64,000 nucleotides of DNA, taken from the NCBI RefSeq assembly GCF_013403985.1, contig NZ_JABFDF010000001.1, positions 930,001-994,000 of the forward strand, written 5' to 3'. Positions 55,819 through 62,557 of this stretch are shown one piece after another; position 1 is the first letter of the stretch; each line of letters starts with the position of its first letter. The DNA comes from Winogradskyella ludwigii. Lineage in GTDB: Bacteria; Bacteroidota; Bacteroidia; Flavobacteriales; Flavobacteriaceae. The position numbers and the translations under genes were made by a program. The notes under the pieces were generated by a model. The model worked only from the letters and a program-made list of their open reading frames with translations. It was not told where the DNA came from and did not search any database.

Positions 55819-56664
55819 CTACCAGTCTTTTTCAGTTTTAACCTTTGCTCCTTTCTGCTTTTCAGCATTCATTTTCTCTTGAACCTTTTGTTCTTGATTC
55901 TGCATGGCTTCCAAAATGTTCTTTATTTGCTGAGGAGACATTTGTCCTGGTTGAGGCTTAGGTTGTTTCTTTTCGTCTTTATCGCCTTTGCCTTCATCCT
56001 TTTTATCATCTTTTGGCTTTCCTTCATCATCCTTATCCTTATCGCCATCCTTTTTGTCCTTATCTCCTTCGTCCTTTTTATCTTGGTCGTCTTTCTTGTC
56101 TTTATCGTCCTTGTTCTCGTCGTCTTTCTTTTGATCTTCTTCTTTGTCTTTTTCTTCGTTTTTATCCTCGTCCTTTTTATCGTCTTCTCCACCACCATCT
56201 TGCTGCTGCTGTTCTGCACATTCTTTAGCTAAGGCGAAGTTGTAGCGTGACTCTTCATCATTGGGATTGTTTCTCAACGCATTTTTAAAAGCTTCTACAG
56301 CTTCTTTACATTGTTCATTTTGCATTAAAATATTTCCAATATTATGAAATGCTCTGTGTTTTTCGTCTTTTGTAATGGCGTTTTTAGCGGCTTCTTGACT
56401 TCTGAATAGCGCCTCATCAAAACTGCCTTTTTTATAATATGAATGTGCCAAATTATAAGCTCCTACAGCTTTACTTGGTGCTTCTGAAATGGCTTTTCTG
56501 TATTCCATTTCTGCTTCTACATAGTTATCTTCTGCTGCTAACTCATTTGCTTTATAAACCAAATTAGTTGCATTTTTTTCTGCTTTTAACTGCTCCTCAT
56601 TTTGATCTTGAGAAAACCCAAGACTTCCAGTTATTAGCGTAATAAGTAGTATATAAAATTTCAT
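55819..56664 (-). CDS. batC: BatC: TPR protein with a highly charged tail
   Basis: A 281-residue protein with a signal peptide (residues 1-18, GFSQ), TPR repeats (about 30-150; AEDNYVEAEMEYRKAISEAPSKAVGAYNLAHSYYKKGSF) and a disordered segment at about 155-240 consisting almost only of Lys, Asp, Glu and Gly, then a PQQIKNILEAMQNQEQKVQEKM helix at the end. The last helix and the TPR block are BatC hallmarks. The low-complexity part generates spurious long frames on both strands. It lies between batB (120 bp) and batD. Confidence 0.9.
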   Translation of the reverse strand: MKFYILLITLITGSLGFSQDQNEEQLKAEKNATNLVYKANELAAEDNYVEAEMEYRKAISEAPSKAVGAYNLAHSYYKKGSFDEALFRSQEAAKNAITKDEKHRAFHNIGNILMQNEQCKEAVEAFKNALRNNPNDEESRYNFALAKECAEQQQQDGGGEDDKKDEDKNEEKDKEEDQKKDDENKDDKDKKDDQDKKDEGDKDKKDGDKDKDDEGKPKDDKKDEGKGDKDEKKQPKPQPGQMSPQQIKNILEAMQNQEQKVQEKMNAEKQKGAKVKTEKDW

Positions 56665-57825: not shown

Positions 57826-58828
57826 AGCTTCTAAATTTTGTGTGTCGCAATAATACTTCTATCAACAATAATAGTCCTGCAAACAAAACTAATGGTCTAT
57901 ATTTCTCAGCGTAGTTGTAGTATTTTTTTTCTTCAACTTCGGTTTTTTCAAGCTTATTGATTTCGTTATAAATTTCGGCTAACTTATCATTATTGGTCGC
58001 TCTAAAATATTTGCCACCAGTTTCTGCTGCGATTTCTTTTAATAATACTTCATCAATTTCTACTTGACTACGACCATATCTAAATGTTCCATTAGAATTA
58101 ATACCAATTGGTGATAATGCCATTCCGTTTGTACCTAATCCAATAGCATATACTTTAATACCGTATTCAACAGCCAATTCACTGGCGATTTTTGGATCTA
58201 TAAAACCAGAATTATTGACACCATCTGTAAGTAAAATAATTACTTTACTCTTGGCTCTACTGTCTTTTAATCGGTTTACAGAAGTTGCTAACCCCATACC
58301 AATTGCTGTTCCGCTTTCGATAATAGTATTATAATTAATATCTCTTAATGCTCTTTTTACAATAGATTTATCACTAGTAATAGGTGTTTTAGTATAGGCT
58401 TCTCCAGCATATTCTACTAAACCTATTCTGTCGTTTGGACGACCATCTATAAAATCTGCTGCGACTTCCTTTAAGGCATCTAATCGGTTAGGTCGTAAAT
58501 CTTTTGCCAACATACTTGCAGAAACATCAATTGCCATAACAATATCAATTCCGCTAGTGGTTTTTGTTTTCGTAGAAACATCTACAGTTCTTGGTCTTGC
58601 TAGTGCTGTAATTAAACATGCTAAAGCAATTAAACGCAATGCAAAAAGTACATGTTTAAATTTTGACCAAAATGAAGACATCCCTTTAAAACCCTGTATG
58701 CTAGACATTTTTAGCGCTGCCGTTTGCTTACTATGCTTAAGAATGTACCAAACTATTGCTATTGGCAAAAGCAATAATAACCAGAAAAATTCTTTATTTA
58801 AAAATTGTATGTTTTCGAGCATCATCAT
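57818..58828 (-). CDS. batA: BatA: von Willebrand factor A domain protein
   Basis: A 336-residue paralogue of BatB: helices at about 15-30 and 62-80, a VWA domain (about 90-300) with the metal site DVSASM in VMAIDVSASMLAKDLRPNRLDALK, SGTAIGMGLATSV and LLTDGVNNSGFIDP, and a C-terminal helix (about 312-330). It starts at the first of three tandem ATG codons, overlapping the upstream stop codon. Confidence 0.93.
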   Translation of the reverse strand: MMMLENIQFLNKEFFWLLLLLPIAIVWYILKHSKQTAALKMSSIQGFKGMSSFWSKFKHVLFALRLIALACLITALARPRTVDVSTKTKTTSGIDIVMAIDVSASMLAKDLRPNRLDALKEVAADFIDGRPNDRIGLVEYAGEAYTKTPITSDKSIVKRALRDINYNTIIESGTAIGMGLATSVNRLKDSRAKSKVIILLTDGVNNSGFIDPKIASELAVEYGIKVYAIGLGTNGMALSPIGINSNGTFRYGRSQVEIDEVLLKEIAAETGGKYFRATNNDKLAEIYNEINKLEKTEVEEKKYYNYAEKYRPLVLFAGLLLLIEVLLRHTKFRSFV

Positions 58829-60552
58829 TCTTTCTCTTCTTCTACCTGTTCAGAATTAAGTTCTATGGAGTCTACAATACGTTCAATGATATCATCTATA
58901 TAATTGTCATCAGTCCTCCAACTTAAAATTATTTGTTGTCTAACGCTTTCTGATCTAAAAAGAAACAGGTTGTATTTTGCTGGCACCATATGATCATCAC
59001 TCAGAGCCAAGTTCATTGTACCGTACGTTTTAACTCCTTCAGCACCATTTGGTGTGGTGAACTTTTCTCGTTTAACTATAATATCTTTTGCGCCTTGTGC
59101 TTCTAATTGTTTTAAATAAGTTTCAGATGTTTTTTGTAAATCTTGCGATTTTTCATCATCAGTCAATTCTTTTGGTTGACCTTGCGCATCGGTAATTTTG
59201 AAAGCTGTAGTGCTGACTTGAACATCTAATCCAGATTTTTCCGATAAATACCTAAATAAGGCTGTACTAATTTTATCTTTATATTCTTCAGGAACCTCAA
59301 CGTCTTCACGTTTTAAAACCTCTGGTGTTTCAATAAAAATTGGTGGAAATCCGTAAGCACTTTCTACCCAATTACCTTCTAACAGTTCTTTACTTTCTTG
59401 ACCAATAATAGTATCCTTTACATAACCAAAACCATATTTTAGTCCAAAACCAATAAAAGTAGCAATAACAAGGAATAACGAAATACCAACAGTTATCCAG
59501 ATTTTTCTACGTTTCTTTTTAAGTTCTTGGTCTTCTTTATATTTCTGATCTAATAACTTCTCTTCTTCCGATGGTTCTGGCAAACTCACCTTAACATGAT
59601 CTATGGCTTTATCTATCGTAGATTTGTCCATTTCGGCAAGTGCTTTGTCTGGTGCAGACTTCGCAAACTTTACTAAATCGGCACGCTGTAAAATAGATTC
59701 AATATGTAAAATAGTTTCTTTAGACAACGGAATTTGGTTGCCATCCTTTAATAAATTTAATCTCGTAATAAGCTCTGATGTGGTACTTTCTAAAGCACGA
59801 TCGTAAACTTTTTCATCTAAATATTTTCTGATGATAAAGGTTAATTCCGAGTAATATTCTTTGACTTCTGAGCGCAACAAAAACTGACTCTCATCTAATT
59901 TCTGTAAGGCTAACTTTGCACGATCGTAAGGTGGTAATAAGGCAATTTCTTCCGCTTCTGTTAATGGTTTTTTTCTCCATATAAACCAGTATAGTAAAAA
60001 TGCGATTGCAGCAATTATAAGCACCACTATTAAAACCCATTTCCACCAATCGCTTCCACTCTCTTCAACTTCTATGATGGGTTTAATATCGTATAATTTC
60101 TGTTTGGTCGTATCAACCACAATGGTATTTACGTCAACTTTTAAAGAATCGGTAAAAAATGGTTGATCTCCTATAATAATTTTTTGTCTTGGAATGGTAT
60201 AAACTCCCGAATCGAATTGTGTTAGCTTATAGATTCTTGATAAGAGAAACTTAGCTTCGCGTTTGGTAGTATCGATCTTTAATGCTTCAACATTTTCTAA
60301 AGGCATAAAGGTTTGACCTTCTGGAAATACAACCAATGCTAGTGAATCTGCTTCAACTTTAATTTTATAATTAATTTGCTCGCCGACTCTAATTTTAGTA
60401 GTGTCAATTTCTGTTGAAACTTGAGCAAATGAAAATAAAGAACCTAGAAAAAAGAACACAAAAAATAGACCGAAAACGGAAGACCGAAGACGGAAGATCG
60501 ATGCGATCTCATTTTTAGTTAATATGCCGAATATATAATTTAAACTTTTCAC
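58825..60552 (-). CDS. unrecognised two-TM protein of the bat operon
   Basis: A 575-residue protein. An N-terminal export signal (hydrophobic residues about 29-43, ending SFAQ), a beta-rich periplasmic part (about 45-165; IDTTKIRVGEQINYKIKVEA, BatD-like), a first membrane helix at about 172-192 (WWKWVLIVVLIIAAIAFLLYWFIW), a cytoplasmic helical domain (about 200-350), a second helix (about 357-378) and a C-terminal domain of about 190 residues. The first part recalls BatD and DUF4381; the whole is not a family I can name. The start is a GTG inside a heptanucleotide array, and a second array (60467-60501) runs through the signal region. Confidence 0.78.
   Translation of the reverse strand: MKSLNYIFGILTKNEIASIFRLRSSVFGLFFVFFFLGSLFSFAQVSTEIDTTKIRVGEQINYKIKVEADSLALVVFPEGQTFMPLENVEALKIDTTKREAKFLLSRIYKLTQFDSGVYTIPRQKIIIGDQPFFTDSLKVDVNTIVVDTTKQKLYDIKPIIEVEESGSDWWKWVLIVVLIIAAIAFLLYWFIWRKKPLTEAEEIALLPPYDRAKLALQKLDESQFLLRSEVKEYYSELTFIIRKYLDEKVYDRALESTTSELITRLNLLKDGNQIPLSKETILHIESILQRADLVKFAKSAPDKALAEMDKSTIDKAIDHVKVSLPEPSEEEKLLDQKYKEDQELKKKRRKIWITVGISLFLVIATFIGFGLKYGFGYVKDTIIGQESKELLEGNWVESAYGFPPIFIETPEVLKREDVEVPEEYKDKISTALFRYLSEKSGLDVQVSTTAFKITDAQGQPKELTDDEKSQDLQKTSETYLKQLEAQGAKDIIVKREKFTTPNGAEGVKTYGTMNLALSDDHMVPAKYNLFLFRSESVRQQIILSWRTDDNYIDDIIERIVDSIELNSEQVEEEKE
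60467..60501 (+). repeat. heptanucleotide array A: five AGACSGA-type units inside a coding region
   Basis: On the plus strand five consecutive 7-mers fit AGA(C/T)(C/G)GA, one of them AAACGGA. They lie in the sequence coding for residues about 18-29 of the 58825-60552 protein. Seven is not a multiple of three, so gain or loss of a unit would change the frame. Confidence 0.8.
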
Positions 60553-60592
60553 TTTACGTTTCTTACTTTACACTTTTTACTTCCTAGTCTTT
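60544..60592 (+). repeat. heptanucleotide array B: seven degenerate ACTTTWY-type units
   Basis: Units of ACTTTTC, ACTTTAC, GTTTCTT, ACTTTAC, and so on, in strict 7-bp register. The array fills the gap between the DUF58 stop (60591-60593) and the next gene, and contains that gene's GTG start (60550-60552, minus strand). Confidence 0.7.
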
Positions 60593-61457
60593 ATCCTCTT
60601 CTCTTAAAATAACCTAACAGTTTTTTCACGTAACTTTCATCGACACGAATATCAATAACACCTGCTCCAGATTTTGTAAAGCTATCTTTAAAGTAGTTCA
60701 CTTTTTCGTTATAAAACTTGCTATAATTTTGTCTTACACTTTTTGAAGCGGTATTAACAAGCATTGACTCTCCTGTTTCTTCATCTTCCATTTGCACCAT
60801 TCCAATATTTGGAATTTCGGCTTCGTGTCTATCATAAATCCTAATTCCAGTAATATCGTGTCTATTCGCTGCAATTTTAAGATTCTGTTTATAATCGTCT
60901 GCAATAAAATCTGACAACACAAAAACAATGGCTGTCTTTTTCATAACACGAGACAAAAACTTAAATGCTTCTGCTGCATTTGTCTGTTTACTTTTAGGCT
61001 CAAATTCTATAAGTTCTCTAATAATCCTAAGTACATGAGAACGCCCTTTTTTAGGTGGTATATAAAGTTCTACATCTCCAGAGAATAAAATAAGGCCTAT
61101 TTTATCATTATTTTGAGTGGCAGAAAACGCTAATGTTGCTGCAATCTCAGTAACAATTTCATTTTTAAATTGATTTTTTGTTCCAAACAACGCACTACCA
61201 GAAACATCTGCCATTAACATCATAGTAAGTTCCCGTTCTTCTTCAAAAACTTTAATGTGTGGCTCATTAGTTCTTGCCGTAACATTCCAATCTATGTTTC
61301 TAACATCATCTCCAAATTGGTATTGACGCACTTCAGAAAACGTCATACCACGACCTTTAAAGGTAGAATGATATTCACCTCCAAATATATGATCAGACAA
61401 ACGACGTGTCTTAATCTCTATTTTTCGTACTTTTTTAAGTAATTCCTTAGTATCCAT
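60591..61457 (-). CDS. DUF58 domain protein of the bat operon
   Basis: A 288-residue cytoplasmic protein with the DUF58 core: RQYQFGDDVRNIDWNVTARTNEPHIKVFEEERE near residues 45-78, followed by a VWA-like fold with the DVSGS motif (MLMADVSGSALFGTK). DUF58 proteins are regularly encoded next to MoxR-type ATPases and Bat VWA proteins and are thought to act with them in a chaperone-like assembly. Four heptanucleotide units end two bases before its ATG. It lies 98 bp after the MoxR gene. Confidence 0.9.
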   Translation of the reverse strand: MDTKELLKKVRKIEIKTRRLSDHIFGGEYHSTFKGRGMTFSEVRQYQFGDDVRNIDWNVTARTNEPHIKVFEEERELTMMLMADVSGSALFGTKNQFKNEIVTEIAATLAFSATQNNDKIGLILFSGDVELYIPPKKGRSHVLRIIRELIEFEPKSKQTNAAEAFKFLSRVMKKTAIVFVLSDFIADDYKQNLKIAANRHDITGIRIYDRHEAEIPNIGMVQMEDEETGESMLVNTASKSVRQNYSKFYNEKVNYFKDSFTKSGAGVIDIRVDESYVKKLLGYFKRRG

Positions 61458-61459
61458 TT

Positions 61460-61487
61460 TTTCAGTTTGCAGTGTGCAGTCTTCAGT
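61460..61487 (-). repeat. heptanucleotide array C: four ACTGMAV-type units before the DUF58 gene
   Basis: Minus-strand 7-mers ACTGAAG, ACTGCAC, ACTGCAA and ACTGAAA in strict register, ending two bases before the ATG at 61457. They occupy the place of a ribosome-binding site. Confidence 0.82.
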
Positions 61488-61555
61488 AAGCCTTTAATTA
61501 AAATCAAGATTCAAATCGTATAACACCAACTAAATATTGATTTTATGACCACTAT

Positions 61556-62557
61556 CTATGGTACTTCGATTTCGTTAACGATTTTATTAATAATATCTTC
61601 AGAAGTTACATTCTCTGCTTCGGCTTCGTAAGTAATACCAATTCTGTGACGTAATACATCGTGTACAACTGCACGTACATCTTCTGGGATTACATAACCT
61701 CTTCGTTTTATAAAAGCGTAACATTTAGCAGCTGTTGCTAAGTTGATACTTCCACGAGGAGAAGCTCCAAAAGAAATTAAAGGTTTTAAATCTCCTAATC
61801 TATATTTTTCAGGGTAACGTGTTGCAAAAATAATATCGAGAATATATTTTTCGATTTTTTCATCCATGTAAACCTCTCTAACGGCATTTTGTGCACTTAA
61901 AATTTGAGCGATTGTCACTACAGGATTTACTTTATCGTAAGTTCCTCTTAAGTTGGCTCTTACTATTTGTTGCTCGTCTTCAATATTAGGATAATCAATT
62001 ACTGTTTTTAGCATAAATCTATCGACTTGTGCTTCTGGTAAAGAATATGTTCCTTCTTGCTCAACCGGATTCATAGTTGCCATTACTAAGAATGGTTTTT
62101 CTAAAATAAAAGTTTCGTCTCCAATAGTAACTTGTTTTTCTTGCATTGCTTCAAGTAATGCAGATTGCACTTTAGCTGGTGCTCTGTTAATCTCATCTGC
62201 TAAAACAAAATTGGCGAAAATTGGCCCTTTTTTAATAGTAAAGTCATTCTCTTTCATATTAAAGATTAATGTACCTACAACATCTGCTGGCAATAAATCT
62301 GGCGTAAACTGAATTCTACTAAAACTAGCATCAATGGCTTTAGACAGTGTATTAATCGCTAATGTTTTTGCTAAACCAGGAACACCTTCTAATAAAATAT
62401 GACCTTGACCTAATAAACCGATGAGCAAACGCTCTATCATATGTTTTTGTCCAACAATAACCTTATTCATTTCAAAGGTTAATAAGTCTACAAATGCACT
62501 TTCTCTTTCTATCTTTTCGTTAATTGATTTGATATCAACTGTACTCGTTTCTTCCAT
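61556..62557 (-). CDS. moxR: MoxR family AAA+ ATPase
   Basis: A 333-residue AAA+ ATPase. Walker A is GVPGLAKT (about residue 57), Walker B is FVLADEINRAP (about 118), the sensor 1 region is PFLVMATMNPVEQEGTY (about 150) and the sensor 2 region is SFGASPRGSINLATAAK (about 258). MoxR proteins act as chaperones that mature or insert metals into VWA-domain proteins, and here it is the first gene of the operon that encodes BatA and BatB. A terminator and a DUF4382 gene lie upstream. Confidence 0.95.
   Translation of the reverse strand: MEETSTVDIKSINEKIERESAFVDLLTFEMNKVIVGQKHMIERLLIGLLGQGHILLEGVPGLAKTLAINTLSKAIDASFSRIQFTPDLLPADVVGTLIFNMKENDFTIKKGPIFANFVLADEINRAPAKVQSALLEAMQEKQVTIGDETFILEKPFLVMATMNPVEQEGTYSLPEAQVDRFMLKTVIDYPNIEDEQQIVRANLRGTYDKVNPVVTIAQILSAQNAVREVYMDEKIEKYILDIIFATRYPEKYRLGDLKPLISFGASPRGSINLATAAKCYAFIKRRGYVIPEDVRAVVHDVLRHRIGITYEAEAENVTSEDIINKIVNEIEVP

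Follow-up and report, generated by a model that had tools for sequence, protein, structure and literature searches.

Heptanucleotide arrays in a moxR-DUF58 operon of Winogradskyella ludwigii as possible members of a class of operon-gap palindromes in Flavobacteriaceae

Three tandem arrays of 7-nucleotide (nt) units, referred to as A, B and C, are located in one operon of Winogradskyella ludwigii, within a 64-kb stretch of the 4.0-Mb genome (C11:930001-994000) that is called the window in the following. The operon is encoded on the minus strand. A gene for a MoxR-type AAA ATPase (61556..62557; 333 aa, PF07726) is followed by a DUF58 gene (60591..61457; 288 aa, PF01882 and VWA_2) and by an open reading frame (ORF) of 575 aa without a Pfam match at E 0.001 (58825..60552), downstream of which two VWA/BatA genes and then a TPR gene are found. 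The gap between moxR and DUF58 comprises 98 nt (61458..61555). Array C (61459..61487), with the ACTGNNN units ACTGAAG, ACTGCAC and ACTGCAA, occupies its 3' part and ends a few nucleotides upstream of the DUF58 ATG. Array B (60544..60582), composed of degenerate AAGTNNN units when read in the sense direction, lies between the DUF58 stop codon and the next ORF and overlaps the GTG start codon (60552) of the latter. Array A (60467..60501), composed of CSGTYTT units, is located in the N-terminal region of the same ORF, which by our reading resembles a signal peptide. This is the placement given in the original prediction (C before a start codon, B intercistronic, A coding), to which the overlap of B with the GTG has to be added.

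At a lag of 7 nt, 21 of 28 positions match in array A and 17 of 21 in array C, values that are equalled by none of 399,320 and 399,460 stretches of the same size, respectively, in 400 kb of the genome outside the window. Array B is much weaker: its 23 matches at 42 positions are equalled by 241 of 399,040 such stretches. Tandem Repeats Finder assigns it a period of 14 (60539-60582), and the end formerly quoted for it, 60592, falls in the DUF58 stop codon. When period-7 segments were scored (match +1, mismatch -1.5, threshold ≥12), arrays A and C were the only ones in the window, and periods of 4, 5, 8, 10, 11 and 13 gave no segment scoring ≥12 there. Across 464 kb of the genome, three period-7 segments were observed, two of them being A and C, compared with a mean of 0.7 in three third-order Markov simulations. 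The original prediction of true period-7 arrays therefore holds for A and C, also against simulated sequence; array B, weak on its own, is backed by periodicity at the same place in relatives.

Related loci were compared in two panels. The named panel consists of 80 loci, the best of 571 relatives obtained by a DUF58 search, most of them titled Winogradskyella or other Flavobacteriaceae. The genus panel contains one genome per genus, with DUF58 found at E 1e-90 in 147 of 149 genera. In all, 227 loci including the window were obtained by search or by place. Period 7 is present at the same sites in many of these related genomes. In 1.60 Mb of named loci, 20 loci have a total of 21 period-7 segments scoring ≥10 within the 130 nt preceding DUF58, and 44 loci have a total of 55 within the 170 nt following it; all remaining sequence contains 17. 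The lag-7 z exceeds 2 in 115 of the 193 moxR-DUF58 gaps of 50-250 nt; for gaps of 50-200 nt this applies to 58/113 in the genus panel and 57/79 in the named panel, with 7 or 14 as the best lag in 68/113 and 62/79, respectively. Other gaps of 50-200 nt from the same loci reach this value in 45 of 604 same-strand cases (at least one of which, in L227, really is a moxR-DUF58 gap), 8 of 149 divergent and 1 of 65 convergent cases. Within the same operon, the corresponding counts are 6/38 for batA-batB, 4/99 for batB-batC and 18/224 for the 100 nt before moxR, and the 150 nt after DUF58 exceed z 2 in 43 of 147 loci of the genus panel and 58 of 79 of the named panel. As a separate observation, the batB-batC gaps of many loci have in common, upstream of batC, a TTTTTAAC..GGTTTTATATCTTAG-type stretch that is perhaps an internal promoter or leader.

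Units differ across genera and include CAGTNNN..ACTGNNN, GATTTAN..TAAATC, AATTGAC.., AATTGAN and GTTTAAT.., among others; some species carry an unrelated palindrome in the moxR-DUF58 gap (TGTCATTCC..GGAATGACA, or a C-rich one). Pattern rules applied to 221 gaps, with six loci left out whose gaps exceed 250 nt, gave 124 heptad gaps, 16 of the TCATTCC type, 16 C-rich palindromes, 10 gaps shorter than 36 nt and 55 others. On a FastTree phylogeny of MoxR and DUF58, with weak support for 91 of its 211 inner branches, these labels require at least 107 changes compared with 140.5 after shuffling. A well-supported set of 15 rows that includes the window contains eight gaps with CAGT heptads, four of the TCATTCC type, two C-rich ones and one other. 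Since period and place are conserved while the unit changes, the arrays do not represent one sequence that spread, in agreement with the original prediction. The A-poor phase of the unit lies 6-7 nt, modulo 7, from the ATG in both the CAGT and the GATTTA class, a fixed phase that is perhaps due in part to descent. The 124 heptad gaps end A-rich, with an A fraction of 0.51-0.81 at positions -5 to -1. An intrinsic terminator was considered and rejected, as no hairpin with a T run could be read from the sequence of these gaps, which show the A-rich end instead.

In many relatives, the moxR-DUF58 gap forms a palindrome as a whole. For each gap, the pairing of the first 12 nt with the last 18 nt was compared with dinucleotide shuffles. 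In 107 genera, the ends of the moxR-DUF58 gap show 4.41 expected pairs versus 1.36 in shuffled sequence, and those of 114 other same-strand gaps 1.34 versus 1.43. In the named panel, the values are 5.31 and 1.53, with the gap ends above the shuffle mean in 65 of 79 loci. The arms are concordant: both belong to one unit family in 28 of the 30 callable gaps of the genus panel (one or both arms being uncallable in the remaining gaps), and exchanging arms between genera, with all classes taken together, gave on average weaker pairing than the own arms in 83 of 103 genera. When the gap of the window is aligned with that of locus L007 (82% identity at aligned positions), array C corresponds to an intact 3' arm. 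The 5' arm (61526..61555), directly after the moxR stop codon, has mutated but recognizable CAGT units. The fold of the window's gap is unremarkable (z -1.06) and its ends are unpaired (0.35 expected pairs versus 1.44 shuffled); an extragenic palindrome is thus present in the relatives and not in the decayed gap of the window. Taken together, the mutated 5' arm, the intact array C and the unpaired ends identify array C, as judged from the alignment, as the surviving half of the moxR-DUF58 gap palindrome. The three arrays had been described as unrelated, and their units do differ; the description has to be qualified because array C has an inverted partner within the same gap in relatives.

The arrays are not confined to this operon. 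In the genome of W. ludwigii, CAGTNNNCAGTNNNCAGT occurs at four sites, namely in the moxR-DUF58 gap, in the corresponding gap of a second moxR-DUF58 pair, after a gene with an Rpb2 domain, which we take to be rpoB (the next gene, from its sequence, presumably being rpoC), and between a TPR gene and the Mur ligase gene that follows it. The second moxR-DUF58 gap (C22:218401-218477, i.e., L110:1501-1577) contains CAGTAAT followed by ten CAGTAAG units and is one-sided, with no inverted arm. No array was found at the third DUF58 paralogue of this genome. A specific association with DUF58 was therefore rejected: rpoB-rpoC also carries an array and the third paralogue carries none, which links the arrays to operon joints. 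A further reading considered was that the units serve to provide stop codons in every frame.

Three such joints were followed into other genera using the 30 best-matching loci per search (58, 41 and 49 genomes had matches). For rpoB-rpoC, eight gaps measure 25-32 nt and 22 are longer. The lag-7 z exceeds 2 in 7 of the longer gaps, and many of those without this signal read as different hairpins; the fold z is below -2 in 20/22, and the ends as measured barely pair (2.03 versus 1.55 shuffled). In many of these loci (L310-L339), the rpoC ATG is moreover preceded by a conserved short leader (..CCATATATT or a variant of it), with unrelated hairpins between the rpoB stop codon and this leader. The second moxR-DUF58 joint could be resolved in 27 of the 30 best loci, where 17 gaps are shorter than 12 nt and 5 of the 8 gaps of 50-250 nt have a lag-7 z above 2. 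For atpD-atpC, 11 gaps are shorter than 24 nt; among the 17 gaps of 50-250 nt, which contain several different units, the lag-7 z is above 2 in 12 and the best lag is 7 or 14 in 15.

A two-armed pattern, CAGTNNNCAGT(10-40)ACTGNNNACTG, which places CAGT before ACTG, has 117 forward-strand matches in 35 of 149 genera (overlaps counted), compared with two for the pattern read backwards and five, in three genera, for the opposite order ACTG..CAGT. Thirty of the CAGT..ACTG loci, from 30 genera, were placed relative to ORFs: one lies at a contig end and all 29 others between two ORFs on the same strand. Other same-strand gaps make up 604 of 818 gaps, so 29/29 is unlikely by location alone (about 0.0002), though gap length also favors operons. 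The distance from the stop codon to the matched core is 3-17 nt in 25 of 29 cases (others: -6, 1, 22 and 24), and that from the core to the start codon is 5-26 nt in 25 (others: 38, 64, 132 and 220, the 132 of L374 being due to a wrong start in a gap otherwise 88 nt long). Pfam assignments for 10 of the placed pairs are ATP synthase beta-epsilon, ABC_tran-SUFBD (twice), an Rnf-Nqr pair, trpD-trpC type (twice), ClpP-DUF58 and three others; five further placed loci are moxR-DUF58 by place or by an identical gap. The polarity of single arrays was determined in 33 loci, all but one from the genus of the window, comprising 20 regions of one genome (G011), among the matches listed, and 13 other loci. 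Of the arrays located ≤60 nt from an ORF edge, 40 of 42 have CAGT after a stop codon (25) or ACTG before a start codon (15), and two are exceptions; near start codons, 15 ACTG arrays face one CAGT array. Seven more arrays are far from any ORF edge. The array sites comprise 25 same-strand, 10 convergent and three divergent gaps, one site inside an ORF and one at a locus edge. The palindrome across the whole gap, the polarity of the arrays relative to gene ends and the recurrence in other operons go beyond the original prediction.

The explanation we favor, and to which we give about an even chance, is that the arrays of the window are members, array C as a remnant, of a class of gap palindromes with 7-nt units that is widespread in Flavobacteriaceae and has a strand-symmetric, DNA-level origin. 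A short unit would multiply, presumably by replication slippage, at the joint between two co-directional operon genes, where sequence growing in steps not divisible by three would harm no reading frame and would be tolerated. The gap would become an inverted repeat in which the unit reads in the same direction outward from each reading frame, with CAGTNNN after the stop codon and its complement ACTGNNN before the start codon. The unit sequence turns over between genera, in both arms together, and place, period and closeness to the stop and start codons persist. Folding could hold the stop codon and the next start codon close together and may keep the palindrome harmless; a folded gap might also be useful for ribosome hand-over or mRNA survival. 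Both the origin and the upkeep appear strand-symmetric, i.e., to act at the DNA level. In W. ludwigii, the moxR-DUF58 palindrome has lost its 5' arm, with array C remaining, and B and A would be edge arrays at the next joint, part of which has been taken up into the beginning of the following protein. Position, period, polarity, agreement of the arms and recurrence were observed directly; slippage and any effect on RNA are inferred.

Several observations weigh against this explanation. A whole-gap fold z below -2 is found in 47 of 107 moxR-DUF58 gaps, yet also in 30 of 114 control gaps, and the best lag differs from both 7 and 14 in 63 of the 193 moxR-DUF58 gaps. The label 'other' applies to 50 of 142 gaps in the genus panel, the unit class labels being patterns of our own and the ORFs having been called by a simple script. 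One-armed arrays occur in convergent gaps (10 of 40 sites). The joint after DUF58, with arrays B and A, generally forms no hairpin (median z -0.27, 6 of 79 below -2); a second hairpin with B and A as its two arms, a fold seen in a few species (L053, L017 and L079), was rejected as a general rule. Within the CAGT class, own arms are lower than swapped arms in only 11 of 33 chimera folds, and they are the stronger ones in 10 of 43 CAGT duplexes and 8 of 24 GATTTA duplexes. Own CAGT arms thus pair no better, rather worse, than swapped ones, and recent inverted copying of the arms was therefore rejected.

Growth in steps of seven was examined in 35 close pairs (one genome per species), of which 25 could be aligned over the moxR-DUF58 gap and 15 after DUF58. 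The loci L022 and L033, which are 97% identical in DUF58, differ by exactly 14 nt in this gap, and the more distant pair L036/L051 shows gap indels of 7, 7 and 1 nt. Over the 25 pairs, multiples of 7 account for 12 of 68 gap indels ≥4 nt, little above the 1 in 7 expected by chance; after DUF58 they account for 6 of 31, with no clear excess. These two sets of counts also speak against the favored explanation. Copying in 7-bp units, as formerly proposed, is thus suggested by two pairs, with no clear overall excess.

Selected RNA hairpins would offer a different account, in which an intercistronic stem-loop in the mRNA either couples translation, by placing the stop codon beside the following start codon, or acts as a barrier to nucleases or Rho; hairpins of any kind would serve. 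The pairing of moxR-DUF58 gap ends beyond shuffles, not seen in control gaps, agrees with it, as do the unrelated palindromes that replace heptads within the 15-row set and the rpoB-rpoC gaps, which are either 25-32 nt long or, in 20 of 22 cases, strongly folded. Coupling by reinitiation needs very short gaps and fails at about 20-38 nt in Haloferax and E. coli, according to PMC10666635, so gap folding could matter. However, G-U pairs, which structured RNA should favor over A-C, are not favored in the 217 gap palindromes, which are not all independent: mismatched columns comprise 307 G-U versus 385 A-C (ratio 0.80, expected 0.91, p 0.08), whereas the acceptor stems of seven tRNAs, a very small control, give 5 and 0. 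This speaks against selection at the RNA level and for a strand-symmetric origin at the DNA level. In addition, the rpoB-rpoC ends as measured pair little above shuffled sequence, the two ends of the gap in the window no longer fold onto each other and one-armed arrays are unable to form such a hairpin. We consider this account rather unlikely, and place in the same range mobile palindromic elements of the REP or MITE type, by which a CAGT-heptad palindrome would have been copied around, tolerated in operon gaps and then altered. Pattern matches vary from 0 to 109 per genome (21 genomes), CAGT arms match those of other loci at least as well as their own partners, the behavior expected if all were copies of a single family, and the second moxR-DUF58 gap is mostly very short and is long where arrays sit. 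Other fillers of the moxR-DUF58 gap also look like dispersed palindromes. REP/BIME and similar palindromes of enterobacteria are extragenic, common between operon genes and conserved in sequence across copies. The gap palindromes are likewise extragenic and inside operons, but they have period and architecture in common and not sequence: the copies listed within a genome share CAGT, with the three other letters varying, and those read show no conserved sequence beyond it. Moreover, unit families differ at orthologous gaps, and the restriction of two-arm forms to same-strand gaps would be unexpected for free insertion.

It appears improbable that the arrays are bound by a protein of the cold-shock, S1 or Csr type, each molecule of which would recognize one heptamer, the kind of binding proposed for TAACTGA repeats. 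The ACTGNNN arrays do end 2-19 nt before start codons, with one at 58, similar to the repeats described for Beggiatoaceae in PMC4679880, and the fixed phase of the unit relative to the ATG would fit as well; different genera, however, have different units at one and the same site, and the complementary sequence is found in arrays that follow stop codons. Chance or base composition is hardly credible. It could account for array B, which alone is not rare, but is refuted for A and C by the Markov simulations and the comparison with 400 kb of the same genome, and the periodicity in relatives also argues against it.

Heptamer repeats themselves are already known. Cyanobacterial STRR are heptanucleotide tandem repeats between genes and resemble the present arrays in this respect. 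According to PMC4679880 (MacGregor 2015), TAACTGA direct repeats precede start codons in Beggiatoaceae, some Cyanobacteria and five Bacteroidetes, including Gramella forsetii and Aequorivita sublithincola, and other heptamers occur in the same gaps of Gramella and Aequorivita. Protein binding is proposed there, a slippage proposal for 7-nt repeats is cited, and indels in TAACTGA-type repeats between two Cyanothece strains are mostly 7-nt steps. These repeats are similar to the arrays described here in having 7-nt units with an ACTG core that are mostly intergenic, most of them pointing to a start codon a few nucleotides away. They differ in having one fixed unit, with variant direct repeats rare in the main genome, whereas the present arrays vary in unit both internally and from one another, have two inverted arms and keep the period as the unit changes at orthologous gaps; no palindrome across an operon gap is described in the passages compared. 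Array C is accordingly not an exact TAACTGA direct repeat, since its units share the ACTG core only. As cited in the same source, Mrazek 2007 found 7 nt to be the commonest unit in most of the repeat-rich genomes surveyed and proposed polymerase slippage; these long simple sequence repeats also have 7-nt units, and neither operon gaps nor inverted arms are mentioned in that citation. Beyond the MacGregor heptamers, no account of period-7 operon palindromes was seen among the open-license papers listed.

What is added here is the palindrome form in operon joints with a changing unit. Heptamer repeats had appeared scattered, without a general placement rule; the rule found is that they run outward from gene ends and form palindromes where the genes of an operon join, while the unit itself may vary. 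Two questions thereby become testable, namely why the unit is seven and whether operon-internal gaps need to be short or else to fold. More doubtful is a generalized form of the favored explanation, in which operon joints of Flavobacteriaceae would carry a sequence-free, period-strict element: a palindrome of 7-nt units anchored to the edges of both adjacent reading frames, with new units per lineage, arms switching together and the same core-operon joints occupied (atpD-atpC, rpoB-rpoC, sufC-sufB/D, the Rnf/Nqr pair and moxR-DUF58). If true, this would need a process that writes 7-nt units outward from gene ends.

For annotation, the arrays after DUF58 call for caution. By our reading, the next predicted protein would owe its start codon and first residues to the heptad arrays at 60544-60582 of the window and in L066, L056 and other loci, and its N-terminus would thus differ between species. 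Long, near-perfect heptamer arrays were also seen at L082:13554-13680 (18 AGAGGTT units, at a contig end) and at L063:7792-7870 (11 TTCACTA units). Imperfect coding repeats with periods of 18 and 48 nt are located at 56060-56188 of the window, within the Asp/Lys-rich portion of the TPR gene with which the operon ends.

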